Source: Kineococcus sp. TRM81007 (GTDB taxonomy: Bacteria > Actinomycetota > Actinomycetes > Actinomycetales > Kineococcaceae). Taken from it: a stretch of DNA of 46,538 nucleotides. The stretch spans positions 422,587-469,124 of the forward strand of contig NZ_JALBVB010000056.1 of NCBI RefSeq assembly GCF_022669155.1, in the 5' to 3' direction. The notes beneath the pieces were generated by a model that saw nothing but the letters and a program-made list of their open reading frames with translations, did not search any database and was not told the DNA's origin. The stretch's first letter is position 1. Every line of letters starts with the position of its first letter. Positions 7,822-32,819 of this stretch are shown piece by piece. The position numbers and the translations under genes are program-made.

Positions 7822-9952
7822 AGGACAGGTCGAGGCCGGTGGCGGCCGCGGCGAAGGCCAGGGTGTCGCGCACGAGGCCGGCGCTGCGAGAGACCGAGCG
7901 CGCGCCGTGCCCGACATCACCCTCCCGGCGCAGCAGGACCGGCCGCCCGGAGGACGTGGCGTGCTGCAGCGCCGCGCACAGCTTGCGCGCGTGCAGCGGG
8001 TCCACCCGCGAGTCGCCGTCGAAGACGGTGAACAGCACCGCCGGGTAGGCCGTCCCCTCCACGACCCGGTGGTACGGCGAGTACGACAGCAACCAGCCGA
8101 ACTCCTCGGCGACGGCGGCCGTGCCGTACTCGTCGCTCCACGTCGCACCCAGCCCGTGCTGCTCGTAGCGGACCATGTCCAGCAGCGGCGCGGAGCACAC
8201 CACCCCGGCGAACAGCTGCGGCTGCTGCGTGAGGGCCGCCCCCACGAGCAGGCCCCCGTTGGAGCCGCCGTGCACGCACAGCCGCTCGTGCGTGGTCCAG
8301 CCCTGCTCGACGAGGAACCGGGCGGCGGCGTGGAAGTCGTCGAACACGTTCTGCTTGTGCTCGCGCATCCCGGCGCGGTGCCAGTCCTCGCCCTCCTCGC
8401 CGCCGCCGCGCAGGTTCGCCACCGCGTGCACGCCGCCGGCCTCCACCCACGCCAGCGCGTCCGGGGCGTAGTGCGGGGACAGGCTGATGCCGAAACCGCC
8501 GTAGCCGTAGAGGATCGCGGGGGCGGGCGAACGGGGCCGGCCGTGCTCGTCGAGGGCGTCGGTGCGCGCGGTGACCTGCAGCCGCACCACGGTGCCGTCG
8601 TCGCTGAGGTACTCCAGCAGCCGGCTCGTCACGGGCGGCACGTCCACGACGCCGGGCGGTGCGGCGTCGACCACGAGGGAGCCGTCGCGGGCGTCGAAGC
8701 GGTGCACGTGCGCGGGGCTGGTGGTGGTCGTGAAGCCGAACCACAGCTCGTGCCCGCCCTCCGGGCGCGTGAGGAGCCCGCCGGCCGACCCGGTGCCCGG
8801 CAGCTCGATCGTCCCCGCCGCGCCCGGGCGGCGCCGGCCCGTCACCAGGTCGTGCACGCTGATCGACGACACGGCGTGCCGGGTCCAGCCCAGCACCAGC
8901 AGCGGCTCGGCCAGCTCCGGGCCGTCCAGCACGGCGACGTCTTCCAGCAGCGCGTCGTCCGCCTGCGGCACCAGCTCGCGCCAGTGCGCCACGCCCGGCT
9001 CGGCCGGGTCGGCCACCGCCAGGCGGCCGCGCGGGGCGTCCAGGTCGGTCAGCAGGTACAGCCGGCCGTCCCGGCCCACCCACGCGCTCGTCTGCGCGTC
9101 CACACCCGCGACGACCTCGCGCAGCACCGGCGCGTCCGGCCCCGACGCCGCCAGGTCCGCGATCCACACGTCGTTGCGCGGCGCCGTGCCGTCGGAGGCG
9201 CTGACCACCAGCCAGCGCCCGTCGCGCGAGGTCCACACCCCGTAGTAGTTCGTCATCGACCGGCCGGCGCCGAACACCTCGACGTCCCCGGCCGGGTCGG
9301 TGCCCACCCGGTGCAGGTACACGCGGCGGTGGTACTGCCGCTCGGCCTCCGGCAGCTCCTCCGGCGGCAGGCGGCGCACGTAGTAGAAGGCGCGCGGCTC
9401 GCCCTCCCGGGCCGGCAGCCACGCCACGGGGGAGTAGCGGGCCCGGTCCACCGGGCCGTCGACGACCTCGCCGCTCGCCACGTCCAGCACCCGCAGCACG
9501 CTCTCCTCGCTGCCGCCCTCGGAGAGCTGGTACGCCAGCAGGTCCCCCTCGACGCTGGGCCGCCAGGAGTCCAGCGTCGTCGTGCCGGAGGGGTCCAGCG
9601 CCACCGGGTCCACCAGGACGCGCTCGGCACCGCCCGGCGCGTCGGTCACCCGCAGCACCGCGTGCTCCGCGCCCGGGTCGCGGCGGCTGCGGAACACCCG
9701 CTCACCGCGGTGCACCGGCGCACCCACCGCGCCCGTGGCCATCAGCTCGCGCACCCGCCGCTCCAGGCGCTCGCGGCCCGGCAACCCGGCCGCGAACCGC
9801 TCCCAGGCGCTGTCCTGCCACGCCGACCACTCCCGGGTCCGCGGGTCGCCGGCGTCCTCCAGCCAGCGGTACGGGTCGCCGACGGCGACGCCGTGCAGCT
9901 CCTCCACGAGGTCCAGGCGCGGGGCGGGCGGGCTGGTCGCGGGGGTCTCCAT
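7820..9952 (-). CDS. Prolyl oligopeptidase family serine peptidase (S9A)
   Basis: Probably a cytoplasmic enzyme that cuts short peptides after proline. The 710-residue product has the expected N-terminal seven-bladed beta-propeller (about 75-440) and C-terminal alpha/beta-hydrolase domain. The predicted triad is Ser564 (GGSNGG), Asp647 (GDSR, matching the DDR motif of porcine POP) and His682 (GHGA). The N-terminal YRWLEDAGDP block is diagnostic for S9A. No signal peptide is visible. ATG 9952 is preceded by TAGGGT (9961-9966) eight bases upstream, so the mRNA is probably leaderless. The stop codon lies within the last copy of a short tandem repeat. Confidence 0.93.
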   Translation of the reverse strand: METPATSPPAPRLDLVEELHGVAVGDPYRWLEDAGDPRTREWSAWQDSAWERFAAGLPGRERLERRVRELMATGAVGAPVHRGERVFRSRRDPGAEHAVLRVTDAPGGAERVLVDPVALDPSGTTTLDSWRPSVEGDLLAYQLSEGGSEESVLRVLDVASGEVVDGPVDRARYSPVAWLPAREGEPRAFYYVRRLPPEELPEAERQYHRRVYLHRVGTDPAGDVEVFGAGRSMTNYYGVWTSRDGRWLVVSASDGTAPRNDVWIADLAASGPDAPVLREVVAGVDAQTSAWVGRDGRLYLLTDLDAPRGRLAVADPAEPGVAHWRELVPQADDALLEDVAVLDGPELAEPLLVLGWTRHAVSSISVHDLVTGRRRPGAAGTIELPGTGSAGGLLTRPEGGHELWFGFTTTTSPAHVHRFDARDGSLVVDAAPPGVVDVPPVTSRLLEYLSDDGTVVRLQVTARTDALDEHGRPRSPAPAILYGYGGFGISLSPHYAPDALAWVEAGGVHAVANLRGGGEEGEDWHRAGMREHKQNVFDDFHAAARFLVEQGWTTHERLCVHGGSNGGLLVGAALTQQPQLFAGVVCSAPLLDMVRYEQHGLGATWSDEYGTAAVAEEFGWLLSYSPYHRVVEGTAYPAVLFTVFDGDSRVDPLHARKLCAALQHATSSGRPVLLRREGDVGHGARSVSRSAGLVRDTLAFAAAATGLDLS

Positions 9953-9960
9953 GGGCGCCC

Positions 9961-9966
9961 ACCCTA
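9961..9966 (-). promoter_or_regulatory. Candidate -10 for prolyl oligopeptidase gene
   Basis: TAGGGT on the minus strand, eight bases before ATG 9952, with no Shine-Dalgarno sequence between. This fits a leaderless start. The 124-base gap to malQ is a divergent promoter region. Confidence 0.45.
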
Positions 9967-10063
9967 GGCACCGCGCGGGCGCCCCGGCCCCGGCGTCGCG
10001 TGGACGAGCGGGGCGGGTGCCGGGCGGGGGACGTGTGGACGGGCCGGGACGGGCGCCGCGTGG

Positions 10064-23448: not shown

Positions 23449-23522
23449 TGGAGCGGGCGACGGGAATCGAACCCGCGTAGCTAGTTTGGAAGACTAGGGC
23501 TCTACCATTGAGCTACGCCCGC
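23449..23522 (-). tRNA. tRNA-Gly (anticodon TCC)
   Basis: Cloverleaf read on the minus strand: acceptor GCGGGCG pairs with CGCCCGC, D-arm AGCTCAATGGTAGAGC, anticodon stem CTAGT/ACTAG around loop CTTCCAA (anticodon TCC), and T-arm with GGTTCGATTCC. The discriminator is T and the 3' CCA is encoded (23449-23451). Decodes GGA/GGG glycine codons, which are less common in this genome type. Confidence 0.95.
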
Positions 23523-23627: not shown

Positions 23628-23701
23628 CGGGGTGTGGCGCAGCTTGGTAGCGCGTCCGCTTTGGGAGCGGAAGGCCCCCGGTTCGAATCCGGGTACCCCG
23701 A
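23628..23701 (+). tRNA. tRNA-Pro (anticodon TGG)
   Basis: Acceptor CGGGGTG pairs with TACCCCG, D-arm with GCGCAGCTTGGTAGCGC, anticodon stem CCGC/GCGG around a loop with TGG, and T-arm GGTTCGAATCC. Discriminator A at 23701; CCA is not encoded. It is divergent from tRNA-Gly and lies upstream of tig. Confidence 0.95.
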
Positions 23702-23773
23702 CGGCCACCGCCCGGTGGTCCGCGGACGACGTGCCGCGGCGCTCGGGCGGGACGACGCCCCGGCGCGGACGGC

Positions 23774-27064: not shown

Positions 27065-28357
27065 GTGGCACGCATCGGTGACGGTGGCGATCTGCTGAAG
27101 TGCTCCTTCTGCGGAAAGAGCCAGAAGCAGGTCAAGAAGCTCATCGCCGGCCCCGGCGTCTACATCTGCGACGAGTGCATCGACCTCTGCAACGAGATCA
27201 TCGAGGAGGAGCTCGCCGAGGCCAACGACCTGGGTCTGGTGGAGCTGCCCAAGCCGCGGGAGATCTTCGAGTTCCTCGACCAGTACGTCATCGGCCAGTC
27301 CTCGGCCAAGAAGTCGCTGGCGGTGGCCGTCTACAACCACTACAAGCGCATCCAGGTGGGGGAGCCGGCCGCGAAGGGCCGCGACGAGGCCGTCGAGATC
27401 TCCAAGTCGAACATCCTGCTGATCGGTCCCACGGGCTGCGGCAAGACGTACCTGGCGCAGACGCTCGCCAAGATGCTCAACGTCCCCTTCGCCATCGCCG
27501 ACGCCACGGCCCTGACCGAGGCCGGCTACGTCGGCGAGGACGTGGAGAACATCCTCCTGAAGCTCATCCAGGCCGCCGACTACGACGTCAAGAAGGCCGA
27601 GACGGGCATCATCTACATCGACGAGGTCGACAAGATCGCCCGCAAGTCGGAGAACCCCTCGATCACGCGGGACGTCTCCGGTGAGGGCGTGCAGCAGGCG
27701 CTGCTGAAGATCCTCGAGGGCACCACCGCGAGCGTGCCGCCGCAGGGTGGCCGCAAGCACCCGCACCAGGAGTTCATCCAGATCGACACCACGAACGTGC
27801 TGTTCATCGTGGGTGGGGCCTTCGCGGGCCTGGACCGCATCATCGAGGCCCGGGCGGGCAAGCAGGGCCTCGGCTTCGGTGCCCAGCTGCGACCGACGGG
27901 GACGGCGAAGCCGGAGCCGACCTTCGGTGACGTCATGCCCGAGGACCTCATGAAGTTCGGGCTGATCCCCGAGTTCATCGGCCGCCTGCCCGTCATCACG
28001 TCGGTGGAGAACCTCGACCGCGACGCGCTGGTGCGCATCCTCACCGAGCCGCGCAACGCCCTGGCCAAGCAGTACCAGCGGATGTTCGAGCTGGACGGCG
28101 TGGAGCTGGAGTTCACCCCCGATGCCCTGGAGGCGGTGGCCGACCAGGCCATCCTGCGCGGCACGGGTGCTCGCGGTCTGCGGGCGATCCTCGAGGAGGT
28201 GCTGCTCCCGGTGATGTTCGACGTGCCCAGCCGCGACGACATCGCCCGCGTGGTGGTGACCCGCGAGGTGGTGCTGAAGAACGTCAACCCCACGCTGGTG
28301 CCGCGTGAGGCGCCGGCGCGCAAGGGCAGCCGGGAGCGCCGCGAGAAGTCGGCCTGA
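27065..28357 (+). CDS. clpX: ClpX, AAA+ unfoldase of the Clp protease
   Basis: Recognises, unfolds and threads substrates into ClpP1P2 using ATP. The 430-residue protein has the N-terminal zinc-binding domain (Cys13, Cys16, Cys35, Cys38), Walker A GPTGCGKT (121-128), Walker [11 protein letters not shown], the pore loop GYVG, and the RKHPHQ block. The ClpP-docking loop reads GLGFG, the LGF variant of the usual IGF tripeptide. GTG 27065 follows GAGGAGAGGAA at a slightly long distance. The last ~20 residues are basic. Position downstream of clpP1P2 supports a shared role, though promoters may differ. Confidence 0.97.
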
Positions 28358-28451: not shown

Positions 28452-29312
28452 TCAGTCCTGCAGGACGGCCTGGACGTCGATGCTGACCTTCAGGGTGGTG
28501 CCGAAGACGGCCACGCCGATGCCCACCGCCTGGTTCCAGTTCATCTTGAAGTCGTCGCGGTGCAGCTCGGTGGTGGCGCTGAAGGCGGCGCGGGTGCCGC
28601 CCCAGGGGTCGGCACCGGAGCCGGTGTAGGTCAGCTCCAGCTGCACGGGGCGGGTGGTCTCCAGGAGCGTCAGCTGCCCCGGCAGCAGCCACCGCCCACC
28701 GTGGCGCTGCACGCCGGTGGCGCGGAAGCGCAGGTGCGGGAAGCGGGCGACGTCGAGGAAGTCGGCGGCGCGCAGGTGCTCGTCCCGCTGGGCGTTGCCG
28801 GTGTCGATCGAGGCGGCCTCGATCTCCACCTCCACCGCCGAAGCGGTGACGTCGTCGGCGGGCACGGTGATGACACCGCCGAAGCGGGTGAAGCGCCCGT
28901 GCACCGCGGAGATGCCCAGGTGGTGGGCGGTGGCGGTGATGGAGGAGTGGGCGGTGTCGATGGACCACGTCCCCGGCGGGGGGACGTCCTGCCCGCCGGT
29001 GCGGCGCAGGTGGACCTCCCCGGCGTTCCAGGTGCCGCCGGCGGGGACCACGACGCTGGTCGCCCGGGGCTCGTGGGCGGGGGCGGCCACCAGCACGGTG
29101 ACGGCCCCCGCGGGCACGGCCGGCAGGGCGAAGGTCCCGTCGCCGCCGGTGACGGCGCGCGCCACCTGGCTGCCGTCCGACCCGAGCAGGGTCACGGCGG
29201 CGCCGGGCACGGGCCAGCCCTCCCGGGTCAGCACGCGCCCGCCGCCCGGGACGGTGCCGGCGGGCTGACCGGTGGTGCCCGCCGGCGGCTGGGCCGGTTC
29301 CCGGGCGCTCAC
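28452..29312 (-). CDS. YceI-family protein with N-terminal carboxypeptidase-regulatory-like domain
   Basis: A 286-residue fusion. Residues about 22-104 form a beta-sandwich of the carboxypeptidase-regulatory type (GGRVLTREGWPVPGAAV at its start, VTGGDGTFALPAVPAG in the middle). Residues about 112-286 are a YceI domain, a lipocalin-like barrel that binds isoprenoids or similar lipids, with WSIDTAHSSI and DVARFPHLRFR visible. No signal peptide is seen, although many YceI proteins are exported. GTG 29312 overlaps the transporter stop by four bases (GTGA), so the protein is made from the same message as an MFS transporter that ends in three domains of the same beta-sandwich type. The ligand is unknown. 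Confidence 0.87.
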   Translation of the reverse strand: MSAREPAQPPAGTTGQPAGTVPGGGRVLTREGWPVPGAAVTLLGSDGSQVARAVTGGDGTFALPAVPAGAVTVLVAAPAHEPRATSVVVPAGGTWNAGEVHLRRTGGQDVPPPGTWSIDTAHSSITATAHHLGISAVHGRFTRFGGVITVPADDVTASAVEVEIEAASIDTGNAQRDEHLRAADFLDVARFPHLRFRATGVQRHGGRWLLPGQLTLLETTRPVQLELTYTGSGADPWGGTRAAFSATTELHRDDFKMNWNQAVGIGVAVFGTTLKVSIDVQAVLQD

Positions 29313-31837
29313 CGCTGCCGCTCCCGGACCGGGGCACCTTCGGCGGTGCCGGCCGAGCCGAGGGTCACCTGCACCGCGGAGACGGTGTCCTCCTCCACGT
29401 CGACGTTCGTGGCCACGGGTGCGTACCCGGCCGCGGTGAGCGTGTAGTGGCCGCCGGCGAGGTCCTCGAAGCCGTAGCCCCCGTCGCTGTCGGTGAGCAC
29501 CGAGCCGACGACCTGACCGTCGCCGTCCACGAGGGTGACGGTGGCCTCGCGCAGGCGCCGGCCGTCGCTGGCGGCGACGACGGTGCCGGTGAGGCGGCCG
29601 CCGCCGGTGAGCAGCAGGTCGCAGGCCAGGGCCCCCGAGTCGGGGACGTCGATGCTGCGGGCCAGCGGCCGGTGCGACTCGCTCTGCGCGGTCAGCACGT
29701 AGCCGCCGCCGACGAGGGCGCCGAAGGAGTAGCCGCCGTCGGTGCCGCTGCGGGTGGAGCCGACCACCTGCCCGGTGACGTCGGTCAGCGTCACGAGGGC
29801 GCCGGCCACGCCACGGTCGGTGTCGGTGGCCGCGTCCCGGGTCAGGACCCGGCCGGTGATGGCCGAACGGCCGGACAGGACGACGTCGCGCTGCACGGAG
29901 GCGCTGCCCACGCCGACGAGGGTGGCGGACGGTGCCACGTGCGGGGCGGCGACGATGAGCAGGTAGGTGCCGCCGGTGGGCAGGGCGATGCGGTAGCCGC
30001 CGTCGTCACCGCTGGAGGTGCGCGCCACCTGCTGGCCGCCCTGGTCGGCCAGGGTCACCACGGCGTCGGGCAGCGGGCGCCCGTCGGCGTGGCGGACGGT
30101 GCCGGCGAGGGCCAGTCCGGTGTCGGTGCGTTCGGCCGGTGCCGGTGCCGGCACCGCGCCGCCTCGCGCGGCGGTGCCGCCCTGCGCCGCGGTGCCGGCC
30201 TCGGACGCGTCGGCGGCGACCGGTGGCTGCACGGGCGTGCTGCCGGTGGCGGCAGCGGTCTCGGGCGCCATCGCGGGAGTCGCGTCGTCGCTGCGCAGCG
30301 AGTTCTCCTTGAAGAAGAGGGTCACGAGGAACGCCACGAGGGCGAAGGGGGCGGCGACCAGGAAGACGTCCGCGATGCCGGAACCGTAGGCGGACATCAC
30401 CAGGGTGCGCAACGGCTCGCCCAGCTCGGACAGGTCCGGCAGGCTGCCGCCGCTCAGGGGCGCCAGGGCGGCCGGGTCGACACCGGCGTCGCGGACGCCG
30501 TCGAGCAGGTGGTCGGTGACGCGGTGCCCCAGGACGGCGCCGAGGGCGGAGACGCCGATGGCGCCGCCGAGGCTGCGGGAGAAGGCGACGAACGAGCTGG
30601 CCGAGCCCAGGTCCTCGGGGGCGGCGACGTTCTGCACGGCGAGCACGAGGTTCTGCATCATCATGCCGACGCCGAGACCCACGAGGGCCATGAAGATCGC
30701 GACGGCCCAGTAGGCGCTGTCGTGCTCGACGGTGCCCATGAGCGCCAGTCCAGCGGTGAGCAGGACACCGCCGGAGACGAGCCAGCCCTTCCAGCGGCCG
30801 GTGCGGGTGATGAACTGCCCGGCGATCGTGGAGGACAGGAACAGGCCCACGATCATCGGGATGGTGGAGAGGCCCGAGCGGGTCGGCGACTGCCCGCGGC
30901 CGAGCTGGAAGTACTGGCTCAGGAAGATGGTGGCGCCGAACATCGCCACGCCGACGAAGAGGCTGGCGAGGGCGGAGAGCACGATCGTGGGGTTGCGGAA
31001 GAACCGCAGCGGGATGAGCGGGTCCGCGGCGCGGGACTCGGCGAGCACGGTGAGCGCGAGCAGGACCACGCCGGCGGTCACGAGCGCGACGGTCCACCAC
31101 GAGCCCCACGCGAACTGGTGCCCGGCGAGGGAGACCCAGACGAGCAGGGCGGACACGCCGCCGGCCAGCAGCAGGGCGCCGAGGTAGTCGATGTGGATCT
31201 CGCGGCGGGGCTGCTCGGGCAGCTTGAGGCGGAACTGCAGCACGAAGAAGGCGACGATCGCGAAGGGGACGCCGACGTAGAAGCACCAGTGCCAGGACAG
31301 GTGCTCGGTGAGGACGCCGCCGATCAGCGGGCCACCGACGGTGGCCAGGGCGAACGTGGCGCCCAGGTAGCCGGAGTAGCGACCGCGCTCCCGCGGGGTG
31401 ACCATCGTGGCGAGGATGACCTGGGCGAGGGCCAGCAGGCCGCCGCCGCCGATGCCCTGCGCCACGCGCAGCGCGATGAGCATGCCCATGCTCGTCGACA
31501 GGCCCGCCACGGCGGAGGCGACGACGAACAGGACGAGGGCGATCTGGACGAGCAGCTTCTTGGAGAAGGTGTCGGCCAGCTTGCCCCAGATCGGGGTGGA
31601 GATCGTCGTGGCCAGCAGCGCTGCGGTGACGACCCAGGTGTAGCTGGACTCGGTGCCGCCGAGGTCGTTGACGATCGTGGGCAGGGCGTTGGAGACGACC
31701 GTGGAGGACAGGATCGCGACGAACATGCCGAGCAGGAGCCCGGACAGCGCCTCGAGCACCTGCGCGTGGGTCATCTTCACGGGGGCGGCCTGGTGAGCGT
31801 GCGCGACGTGGTCGGGTGGTGCGGTGGGGGTGCTCAT
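29309..31837 (-). CDS. DHA2-type MFS transporter fused to three carboxypeptidase-regulatory-like repeats
   Basis: An 842-residue protein. Residues 30-510 are a 14-helix drug:H+ antiporter-2 domain, with motif A GKLADTFSKK (85-94) and the antiporter motif C region GGPLIGGVLTEHLSW (168-182). An Ala/Thr/Pro/Gly-rich linker (512-572) leads into three tandem beta-sandwich repeats (about 576-655, 656-745, 747-826). Each has the pattern GTV...DGR/A-P-A-VTL-D-GGQVV-x-S-DGGY. Ordinary DHA2 transporters end soon after helix 14. A 14-helix topology puts the repeats in the cytoplasm. ATG 31837 overlaps the MarR stop (ATGA). The operon resembles MarR-controlled drug efflux; the substrate is not known. Confidence 0.92.
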   Translation of the reverse strand: MSTPTAPPDHVAHAHQAAPVKMTHAQVLEALSGLLLGMFVAILSSTVVSNALPTIVNDLGGTESSYTWVVTAALLATTISTPIWGKLADTFSKKLLVQIALVLFVVASAVAGLSTSMGMLIALRVAQGIGGGGLLALAQVILATMVTPRERGRYSGYLGATFALATVGGPLIGGVLTEHLSWHWCFYVGVPFAIVAFFVLQFRLKLPEQPRREIHIDYLGALLLAGGVSALLVWVSLAGHQFAWGSWWTVALVTAGVVLLALTVLAESRAADPLIPLRFFRNPTIVLSALASLFVGVAMFGATIFLSQYFQLGRGQSPTRSGLSTIPMIVGLFLSSTIAGQFITRTGRWKGWLVSGGVLLTAGLALMGTVEHDSAYWAVAIFMALVGLGVGMMMQNLVLAVQNVAAPEDLGSASSFVAFSRSLGGAIGVSALGAVLGHRVTDHLLDGVRDAGVDPAALAPLSGGSLPDLSELGEPLRTLVMSAYGSGIADVFLVAAPFALVAFLVTLFFKENSLRSDDATPAMAPETAAATGSTPVQPPVAADASEAGTAAQGGTAARGGAVPAPAPAERTDTGLALAGTVRHADGRPLPDAVVTLADQGGQQVARTSSGDDGGYRIALPTGGTYLLIVAAPHVAPSATLVGVGSASVQRDVVLSGRSAITGRVLTRDAATDTDRGVAGALVTLTDVTGQVVGSTRSGTDGGYSFGALVGGGYVLTAQSESHRPLARSIDVPDSGALACDLLLTGGGRLTGTVVAASDGRRLREATVTLVDGDGQVVGSVLTDSDGGYGFEDLAGGHYTLTAAGYAPVATNVDVEEDTVSAVQVTLGSAGTAEGAPVRERQR

Positions 31838-32271
31838 GCGTTCCTCTGCAGGGTCTTCTCCGGGGCGGTGGTGGCGGCCAGCTTCCGCAGCAGGCGGGCG
31901 AGGTCGTCGACCTCGGCGTCGTCCCAGCCGGCCAGGCGCGCCACGAGCGCACCGACGACGCGGTCGCGCTGCGCGCGCAGCTCGGCCTCGCCGGCGGCGG
32001 TGACGGCCAGCCGCTGGGAGCGGCCGTCGTCGGGGTCGGGGGAGGTGGTCAGCAGTCCTTCGGCGCGCAGGTGGGCGACGTGGCGGCTGACGGTGGACAG
32101 GTCCAGGCCGAGACCCTCGGCGACCTCGCTCATGCGCAGGCTTCCGTGCTCGCGCACGATCGAGAGCGTCGCGGTGCCGGGCAGGGACGCGGCGCCGATG
32201 AGGCGCCGGCGGGCCCGTGCGAGGTGCGGCAGGACGGGGACGAGCGCGGCGCACGCGGTGGCGGTGGCCAT
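31834..32271 (-). CDS. MarR-family regulator, first gene of the transporter operon
   Basis: A 145-residue winged-helix repressor. The recognition helix region MSEVAEGLGLDLSTVSRHV spans about 47-65, and the wing DPDDGRSQR about 79-87. ATG 32271 has GAGGTGAT directly upstream. Its stop overlaps the transporter start in ATGA, so regulator, transporter and YceI fusion form one coupled operon. An inverted repeat overlies the predicted promoter just upstream, suggesting self-repression relieved by a ligand, probably a transporter substrate. The ligand is not predictable here. This MarR is not a close duplicate of the one at 32391-32819. Confidence 0.9.
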   Translation of the reverse strand: MATATACAALVPVLPHLARARRRLIGAASLPGTATLSIVREHGSLRMSEVAEGLGLDLSTVSRHVAHLRAEGLLTTSPDPDDGRSQRLAVTAAGEAELRAQRDRVVGALVARLAGWDDAEVDDLARLLRKLAATTAPEKTLQRNA

Positions 32272-32296
32272 GATCACCTCGGGGTGAGCGGTTGGT

Positions 32297-32336
32297 GTGT
32301 GCAAGCAACGATATGACGAGTGGTTGCTGCACACAA
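32297..32336 (-). promoter_or_regulatory. Promoter and overlapping inverted-repeat operator of MarR-MFS-YceI operon
   Basis: On the minus strand, TTGTGT (-35, 32336-32331), a 17-base spacer and TATCGT (-10, 32313-32308). Inverted arms GTGTGCAAGCAAC (32297-32309) and GTTGCTGCACAC (32323-32334) differ by one inserted A and cover both elements. A MarR dimer there would block RNA polymerase. Confidence 0.65.
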
Positions 32337-32390: not shown

Positions 32391-32819
32391 TCAGAGCTGG
32401 GAGTTCAGGCGTGCCACGAGCGTGGCCAGCTGGGTCATGTCCTCCTCGGACCAGTCCTGCAGGCGCGCGTACAGGCGCTCCCGCCGGGCCGTCCGAGCCG
32501 CGTCCACCTTCTCGGTGCCGAGGGCCGACATCCGCAGGCGCACCGCCCGGCCGTCGGTGGGGTCGGCCGTCCGCTCCACCAGGCCGAGGTTCTCCAGCAG
32601 CTGCACCTGCCTGCTCAGGGTCGGCTTGCCGATGCCGAAGAAGGCCGCCAGGTCGGAGGGCCGGGCCTCCCCGACGTCGCCGAGGCGGACGAGCAGGCTG
32701 TAGGCCTCCGGCTCGAGCTCCGGGTGCACCGTGCGAGCCGTCTCGCGGCTGATCGCGCGCGAGCGGCGCAGCAGGACGGCGAGTTCTCGCTCCAGGTGGT
32801 CTGCGGCCTCGGGGTGCAC
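32391..32819 (-). CDS. Second MarR-family regulator
   Basis: A 142-residue winged-helix protein: helices around 5-30, recognition region RPSDLAAFFGIGKPTLSRQVQ (about 53-73) and wing DPTDGRAVR (86-94). GTG 32819 is supported by TACGGT (32826-32831) six bases before it, as in leaderless genes; longer upstream reading is Arg-rich and unlikely. It lies between the MarR-MFS operon and the PadR-ino1 operon, divergent from the latter. It could regulate either neighbour or itself; the sequence does not decide. Confidence 0.87.
   Translation of the reverse strand: MHPEAADHLERELAVLLRRSRAISRETARTVHPELEPEAYSLLVRLGDVGEARPSDLAAFFGIGKPTLSRQVQLLENLGLVERTADPTDGRAVRLRMSALGTEKVDAARTARRERLYARLQDWSEEDMTQLATLVARLNSQL

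Follow-up and report, generated by a model that had tools for sequence, protein, structure and literature searches.

Sections of the study by Guo et al. (2018, PMC6036246) describe an operon of Streptomyces avermitilis in which the MarR-family regulator SAV4189 represses its own gene and the co-transcribed gene sav_4190, encoding a transporter of the major facilitator superfamily (MFS). In those sections, three 13-bp SAV4189 sites are footprinted, hygromycin B and thiostrepton free the regulator from DNA, with transcription rising roughly 70- to 140-fold, and deletion of sav_4190 leads to a higher avermectin yield. According to excerpts of two other reports, the S. coelicolor counterparts, SCO4032 and SCO4031, rise together upon DNA relaxation (PMC6637917) and agree in the direction of their change in a differentiation data set (PMC3897704). 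Here we analyse a stretch of 46,538 nucleotides from the 4.2-Mb genome of Kineococcus sp. TRM81007 (contig NZ_JALBVB010000056.1, positions 422,587 to 469,124; hereafter the window). It contains a three-gene operon encoding a MarR regulator, an MFS exporter with three carboxypeptidase-regulatory-like (CarboxypepD_reg, CpD) domains at its C-terminus, and a YceI lipocalin-like protein carrying one such domain. The earlier note on this DNA knew of no described mechanism for the exporter/YceI pair. The operon is nevertheless partly known, with an overlooked third gene, yceI: its MarR-MFS part, in the same gene order, is SAV4189-SAV4190, and the main text of PMC6036246, which treats two genes, has no mention of YceI. 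The more general finding, which goes beyond that first reading, is that unrelated exporters carry a cytosolic triple-CpD tail as a swappable part.

In mycobacteria, LprG and Rv1410 (P55) bring a lipid carrier and a DHA2 MFS exporter together in one operon, and the window operon likewise combines a lipid-binding protein with a DHA2 exporter. LprG is an outer-face lipoprotein of a different fold; the Kineococcus carrier is predicted to be cytosolic instead. The 14-helix DHA2 exporters EmrB, EfpA, QacA and the Rv1410 homologue share fold and family score with the window exporter, which differs from them by its triple CpD tail and by a serine at the acidic position of helix 1. Moreover, its operon has no gene for a membrane-fusion partner. 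The YceI lipocalins BcnA/BcnB, PA0423 and TT1927b share the barrel fold and the Pfam YceI domain with the third protein of the operon, whereas the latter has an N-terminal CpD_reg domain and no visible leader, and its genetic partner is the exporter rather than the cytochrome b561 LcoA of the Bcn system.

The three genes lie on the minus strand, as do all features below unless stated otherwise. The first, at 31834-32271, encodes a MarR-family regulator of 145 aa (Pfam MarR, E 1.2e-10) and occupies the position of SAV4189 in streptomycetes. The second, at 29309-31837, encodes the DHA2 exporter with its C-terminal triple CpD_reg tail (842 aa), identified by Pfam, TIGR00711 and an AlphaFold2 model. 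The third, at 28452-29312, starts with GTG and encodes the CpD_reg-YceI fusion (286 aa), for which Pfam, a model and hydropathy were used and no signal peptide was seen. The four-base overlaps announced in the earlier note were confirmed: the MarR and MFS genes share 31834-31837 (ATGA), and the MFS and yceI genes share 29309-29312 (GTGA), so that the yceI start overlaps the MFS stop. In all 10 genus mates searched, the fused YceI gene is present with the gene of the triple-CpD MFS exporter directly upstream. Gene order and both overlaps are kept in 10 of 10, indicating that the arrangement is not due to chance, and the pair is present in 11 of 11 Kineococcus genomes when the window is included. 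The MarR gene is directly followed by the MFS gene in the window, in Kineococcus and in streptomycete loci. The four-base overlaps set Kineococcus apart from the published operon: in 26 loci of genus g57, which we take to be Streptomyces, the earliest start that yceI could use comes after the MFS stop.

The operator was searched within 410 bp surrounding the start of MarR in 77 loci that have this gene (73 streptomycete, 4 Kineococcus). The exact 13-bp operator TTGCCYKHRSCAA was found in 71 of the 73 streptomycete loci, against 82 of 4000 random windows of equal size. Two or more exact sites are present in 62 streptomycete loci, and in 38 of these the two proximal sites are 29 bp apart. None of the 4 named Kineococcus loci carries the exact site, and the best match in the window has 2 mismatches. 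A probable MarR operator is formed there by two TTG-type sites 28 bp apart, found as 2-mismatch matches to the SAV4189 site (32292-32336; the interval of the earlier note, which ends at 32336, includes it). The same form occurs in 11 of 11 Kineococcus sequences: TTG(C/T)(A/G)TGNNGCAA, then 28 or 29 bp on TTGCTTGC(A/G)CACACCAA. The two-site layout is thus related to that of streptomycetes, but the Kineococcus operator has diverged. Given the exact operator in the former and the diverged form in the latter, we assign on sequence grounds the streptomycete loci to the SAV4189-SAV4190 operon and the Kineococcus genes to a relative of it. Antibiotic induction of the Kineococcus operon is what we infer by analogy with S. 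avermitilis.

In the exporter, Pfam detects MFS_1 (E 1.5e-50) and three CarboxypepD_reg stretches (whole-protein E 1.1e-34), and the protein passes the NCBIfam model TIGR00711 (EmrB, DHA2) with 242.3 bits for a cut-off of 230.2. Its AlphaFold2 model (26 sequences, mean pLDDT 77, pTM 0.58) displays 14 long helices up to residue 506, by our own assignment, and three beta-sandwiches extending to residue 826; the best Foldseek matches are EmrB (8zal), EfpA (8ufd) and the Rv1410 homologue. The transporter core, defined by model helices, Foldseek and the positive-inside count, covers residues 24-506 (30320-31768). It is followed by a disordered linker (residues 516-573, 30119-30292, with pLDDT below 50) and by CpD 1 (about residues 574-655, 29873-30118; Pfam stretch 577-653, model strands from 576). 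CpD 2 (about 656-745, 29603-29872; strands 658-743) and CpD 3 (about 746-828, 29354-29602; strands 747-826) each correspond to a Pfam stretch and have approximate boundaries. Lysines and arginines number 16 in inside loops against 5 in outside loops, and inside exceeds outside in 25 of the 25 exporter sequences counted, the 26th alignment row, another DHA2 exporter, being omitted. From 14 helices and positive-inside loops, the exporter is predicted to have both ends inside and therefore a cytosolic tail. Helix count and charge bias agree with the earlier note, which had placed three CpD domains behind a 14-helix core on the cytoplasmic side. The odd helix count and extracellular repeats that it had named as the opposite outcome did not appear, and extracellular repeats were rejected.

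The YceI protein was likewise said to carry one N-terminal CpD domain and no signal peptide, and both statements are supported. Pfam places CarboxypepD_reg at 25-96 (E 1.9e-12) and YceI (PF04264) at 116-282 (E 2e-44). In the model (25 sequences, mean pLDDT 78.5, pTM 0.59), the CpD domain spans about residues 20-104 (29001-29255; strands 20-104) and the lipocalin-like barrel about residues 114-284 (28461-28973), of which residues 258-271 are poorly modelled. Foldseek gives TM-scores on target of 0.85-0.91 with 7bwl, 1y0g and 1wub; the proteins matched are PA0423, E. coli YceI, TT1927b and BcnB, and the top match, 7bwl, is titled antibiotic sequester. The leader was assessed by the hydropathy of the 45 residues preceding the CpD domain and not by a signal-peptide predictor. 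No hydrophobic leader was found in 102 CpD-YceI fusions, where the 12-residue mean never exceeded 2.0 (highest 1.69). These fusions come from 120 loci, in which some genes were fetched twice and those with too few preceding residues or no qualifying match were skipped. With 14 helices and positive-inside loops in the exporter and no leader seen in YceI, the two CpD-bearing parts should both be cytosolic, as the earlier note had supposed, and hence share a compartment. In the parts of the literature consulted, YceI lipocalins hold isoprenoids in most structures (PMC5350466, PMC9113575), and BcnA and several orthologues capture hydrophobic antibiotics (PMC5350466).

Consistent pairing of the two CpD-bearing proteins across Actinomycetes was searched for and found, so that the second outcome named by the earlier note as refuting, a lack of such pairing in homologous operons, did not appear either. 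Of 394 sampled genomes of the class, at least 50 have a CpD-YceI match at E ≤1e-42; up to six candidates per genome were scored in this survey and in that of the tails, so that survey counts are lower bounds. From 65 rows, 8 were dropped, either because the match missed the CpD domain or because of stop codons (G193), leaving 57 places for adjacency. Thirty-seven CpD-YceI genes, among them that of the window, are the closest; a tailed exporter adjoins 35 of these and 0 of the 20 more distant ones. Each of the 37 genomes that have a close copy encodes a tailed exporter at some place, and 27 of these copies belong to genus g57. Each of 29 fetched loci (L055-L083) has a three-CpD MFS gene adjoining CpD-YceI. 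The pair, with exactly three domains, is present in 77 of 80 named loci (4 Kineococcus, 75 Streptomyces, 1 Kitasatospora). Of the other three, two run into a contig end and one (L151) has a damaged tail. Since the 80 loci are the best matches of a longer list, they do not represent 80 independent events. L151, from S. macrolidinus, might pass for a natural fusion: at 8900-10000, a single reading frame contains the MFS core, a stop that ends it, four CpD domains and YceI, in that order. By eye, a long inverted repeat and a truncated first CpD domain follow the stop; in our reading the tail is broken or has been rearranged, or else the assembly is faulty, and the locus is neither a fusion nor counted as support. 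The diverged Streptomyces CpD-YceI genes (20 places) were rejected as members of the pair, none of them adjoining a tailed exporter. The loci L084-L096 belong to this diverged group and have no tailed exporter nearby; by eye, some adjoin genes that we take to be holA and lepA.

The tail is not confined to this operon. In the window's genome, 7 of 8 CpD_reg matches pass the Pfam cut-off, distributed over the operon exporter (3), the operon YceI (1) and an MMPL exporter (3). In the sample, the tail was found at no fewer than 91 places in 55 of the 394 genomes. Forty of the 56 tail places without an adjacent CpD-YceI gene were fetched. MFS cores, of several DHA2 kinds, are present at 34 of them and an MMPL core at 1; at the other 5, one of which lies at a contig end, no membrane core could be seen. 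We then compared 184 tailed exporters from loci fetched for pair or tail, distinct by tail sequence only and excluding core-less tails. Of these, 178 carry exactly three CpD domains (168 MFS, 10 MMPL), 5 carry two and 1 carries one; in 183, no more than 40 residues separate the last domain from the end of the reading frame. In genome G010, cores are 29% and tails 79% identical between the operon exporter and a second DHA2 exporter; for the operon exporter and a second exporter in G002 the values are 28% and 77%. Between two Streptomyces species (L118 and L241) they are 27.5% and 68%. MFS and MMPL exporters show no real core match, with tails 46-53% identical. Clear similarity between tailed exporters begins around the first CpD domain, after the linker. 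Tails being far more identical than cores, sequence comparison shows that the triple-CpD tail is a swappable cassette that has moved whole between exporters, including other DHA2 and MMPL proteins.

A tree of 96 CpD domains (85 columns, with many weak forks and long branches) unites first repeats, whether from operon MFS, other MFS or MMPL exporters, in one group (99/94) and second repeats of the same exporters in another (93/96); third repeats were not resolved as one group. All 18 YceI CpD domains of the operon type fall together (94/86), next to tail repeat 1 (87/86), and 3 diverged Streptomyces YceI domains lie elsewhere. Four triple-CpD proteins (L250, L251, L254, L258) have no recognised transporter core. 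The gene for the one in L254 (4288-5688, genome G164) immediately follows that of a Polyketide_cyc2 (lipid transport) protein, which by its domain assignment is another hydrophobic-ligand barrel beside the cassette.

Gene order, domains, topology, conservation and the cassette, as read from sequences and models, can be accommodated by an inducible efflux operon in which a cytosolic lipocalin docks on the exporter tail and hands over hydrophobic cargo. We favour this capture and hand-over reading tentatively and rate it somewhat short of an even chance. It is proposed because an antibiotic-induced operon would make both a CpD-tailed exporter and a CpD-tagged cytosolic lipocalin, and because YceI relatives bind isoprenoids or antibiotics. 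MarR would sit on its own promoter and leave when a toxic compound binds, as with hygromycin B and thiostrepton in S. avermitilis and presumably by a similar route in Kineococcus. The 14-helix exporter, likely a drug-export pump, would then be made and would expose a cytosolic tail of three transthyretin-like CpD_reg sandwiches. In Kineococcus, the cytosolic YceI lipocalin with its single CpD_reg domain would be co-produced from the overlapping gene. That domain may dock onto the tail, and the barrel may take a hydrophobic drug, metabolite or isoprenoid from the cytosol or inner leaflet and pass it to the exporter, thereby raising the local cargo concentration at its inward-open mouth. The tail itself would be a general docking port, moved whole between exporters, which suggests it as a place where binding proteins could dock and deliver their cargo.

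Several observations weigh against this reading, and against exclusive docking in particular. The 56 of 91 tail places mentioned above have no listed adjacent CpD-YceI, and a close CpD-YceI is missing from 18 of the 55 genomes with a tail. The first of these counts, the presence of the tail on MMPL exporters and the four genomes named next led us to reject a tail specific to YceI. Four genomes (G018, G194, G338, G376) have CpD-YceI and no tailed exporter at E ≤0.001; in G018, the single CpD match of the tail search is the genome's own YceI. G353 has lost the tail, and CpD-YceI is kept there beside the tail-less exporter. Operon-type tailed exporters stand without an intact adjacent CpD-YceI in G043, G211, G232, G411 and the second copy of G005 (L294). 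Between the exporter and a MarR gene, where relatives have CpD-YceI, G211 retains only a short YceI remnant (L229:3080-3310), and the partner therefore looks lost. The diverged Streptomyces CpD-YceI domains were not grouped with the operon type in 3 of 3 tree rows. Altogether, the exporter/CpD-YceI pair is favoured and not obligatory.

The nature of exporter and cargo raises further objections. An acidic residue in helix 1 is a coupling residue of DHA2 exporters, without being a strict family criterion. At this position the window exporter has a serine (residue 44, 31706-31708). Operon-type cores have Ser in 91 cases and a gap in 11; other tailed cores have 30 Asp, 20 Glu, 12 other residues and 43 gaps; tail-less DHA2 cores of the fetched loci have Asp in 56 of 56, although most of these look like one neighbouring Streptomyces gene. 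Because serine replaces an acid that is frequent in other DHA2 exporters, the window exporter may not be a standard drug antiporter. Hygromycin B is polar, and we know of no interaction, ligand or phenotype for the operon YceI. In the sections seen, Guo et al. argue that the SAV4190 pump exports precursors and not avermectin (PMC6036246). Passages of PMC9113575 report that BcnB, of the same family as BcnA, binds no antibiotic, and express doubt that antibiotic capture is the primary role of BcnA.

Some of these cases would be expected if the CpD domains were structural only, the tail serving exporter oligomerisation or stability and the YceI domain its own folding or dimerisation. The shared operon would then reflect envelope or membrane stress, and YceI would manage an isoprenoid of the cytosol or inner leaflet, such as menaquinone, without touching the exporter. 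The tails without an adjacent CpD-YceI and the four genomes with CpD-YceI and no tail are consistent with this, as are the isoprenoids held by most YceI structures. The part of PMC9113575 consulted also has BcnA working with a membrane cytochrome against lipid peroxidation, and a passage of PMC6007079 mentions a terpene synthase of Streptomyces whose N-terminus carries a CpD domain, which places such domains on an isoprenoid enzyme as well. However, purely structural domains leave unexplained why 35 of 37 close CpD-YceI genes stand beside a tailed exporter and why the YceI CpD domains group beside tail repeat 1, and we consider this explanation rather unlikely. Alternatively, the tail could be the port of a third cytosolic factor (a scaffold, polar marker or regulator), with CpD-YceI as a second client or competitor instead of a cargo carrier. 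Such a port would suit a cassette found on MFS and MMPL exporters with quite different cores, and the few triple-CpD proteins lacking a recognised core. Nothing speaks directly against it, the neighbourhood scans having covered only the domains of this operon and MMPL; we judge it improbable. Finally, that the repeats are extracellular and YceI exits without a signal peptide to act at the cell surface is highly improbable with an even count of 14 helices, 25 of 25 inside-positive exporters and no leader in 102 fusions, even if other proteins often carry CpD_reg and related sandwiches on the outside of the cell and BcnA, in the part of PMC5350466 seen, is secreted and acts outside the cell.

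The capture and hand-over reading has a wider form, in which DHA2 MFS and MMPL exporters share an interchangeable three-domain cytosolic docking port loaded by CpD-tagged cytosolic lipocalins. We regard this wider form as unlikely. If true, it would amount to intracellular carrier-fed efflux, and one soluble capture protein could serve several pumps. Single-membrane bacteria lack periplasmic adaptors of the kind used by tripartite pumps; for the collection of membrane-soluble drugs by their MFS pumps, a swappable cytosolic tail pairing with a lipocalin would constitute a soluble loading stage of efflux. The tail cassette also provides a sequence tag by which exporters with a possibly shared partner could be found. 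Many Streptomyces have the pair, and deletion of the pump raises antibiotic yield in S. avermitilis, as described in the sections cited (PMC6036246). Literature searches, from which subscription papers were mostly absent, gave no description of a CpD tail in exporters among the results listed. Within the same coverage, none joined YceI, an MFS transporter and the carboxypeptidase regulatory-like domain, and none joined YceI, Streptomyces, MFS and MarR.

Other features surround the operon and its relatives. A second MarR-family gene lies directly upstream in the window (32391-32819, approximate, its start picked by comparison with another Kineococcus copy). Nine of 10 genus-mate loci retain it, and the remaining one is cut by a contig end. 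In four other actinomycete loci (L082, L083, L098, L102), a MarR gene closer to this second one sits after the YceI gene. In G018, the CpD-YceI gene stands alone (L045:4614-5846), near genes that, by eye, we take to encode an isochorismatase and a thioredoxin. On the plus strand of the window, a convergent gene at 27065-28357 (430 aa) is presumably clpX, a resemblance also judged by eye. Finally, the window contains two divergent tRNA genes, for Gly (tcc) at 23449-23522 on the minus strand and for Pro (tgg) at 23628-23702 on the plus strand.

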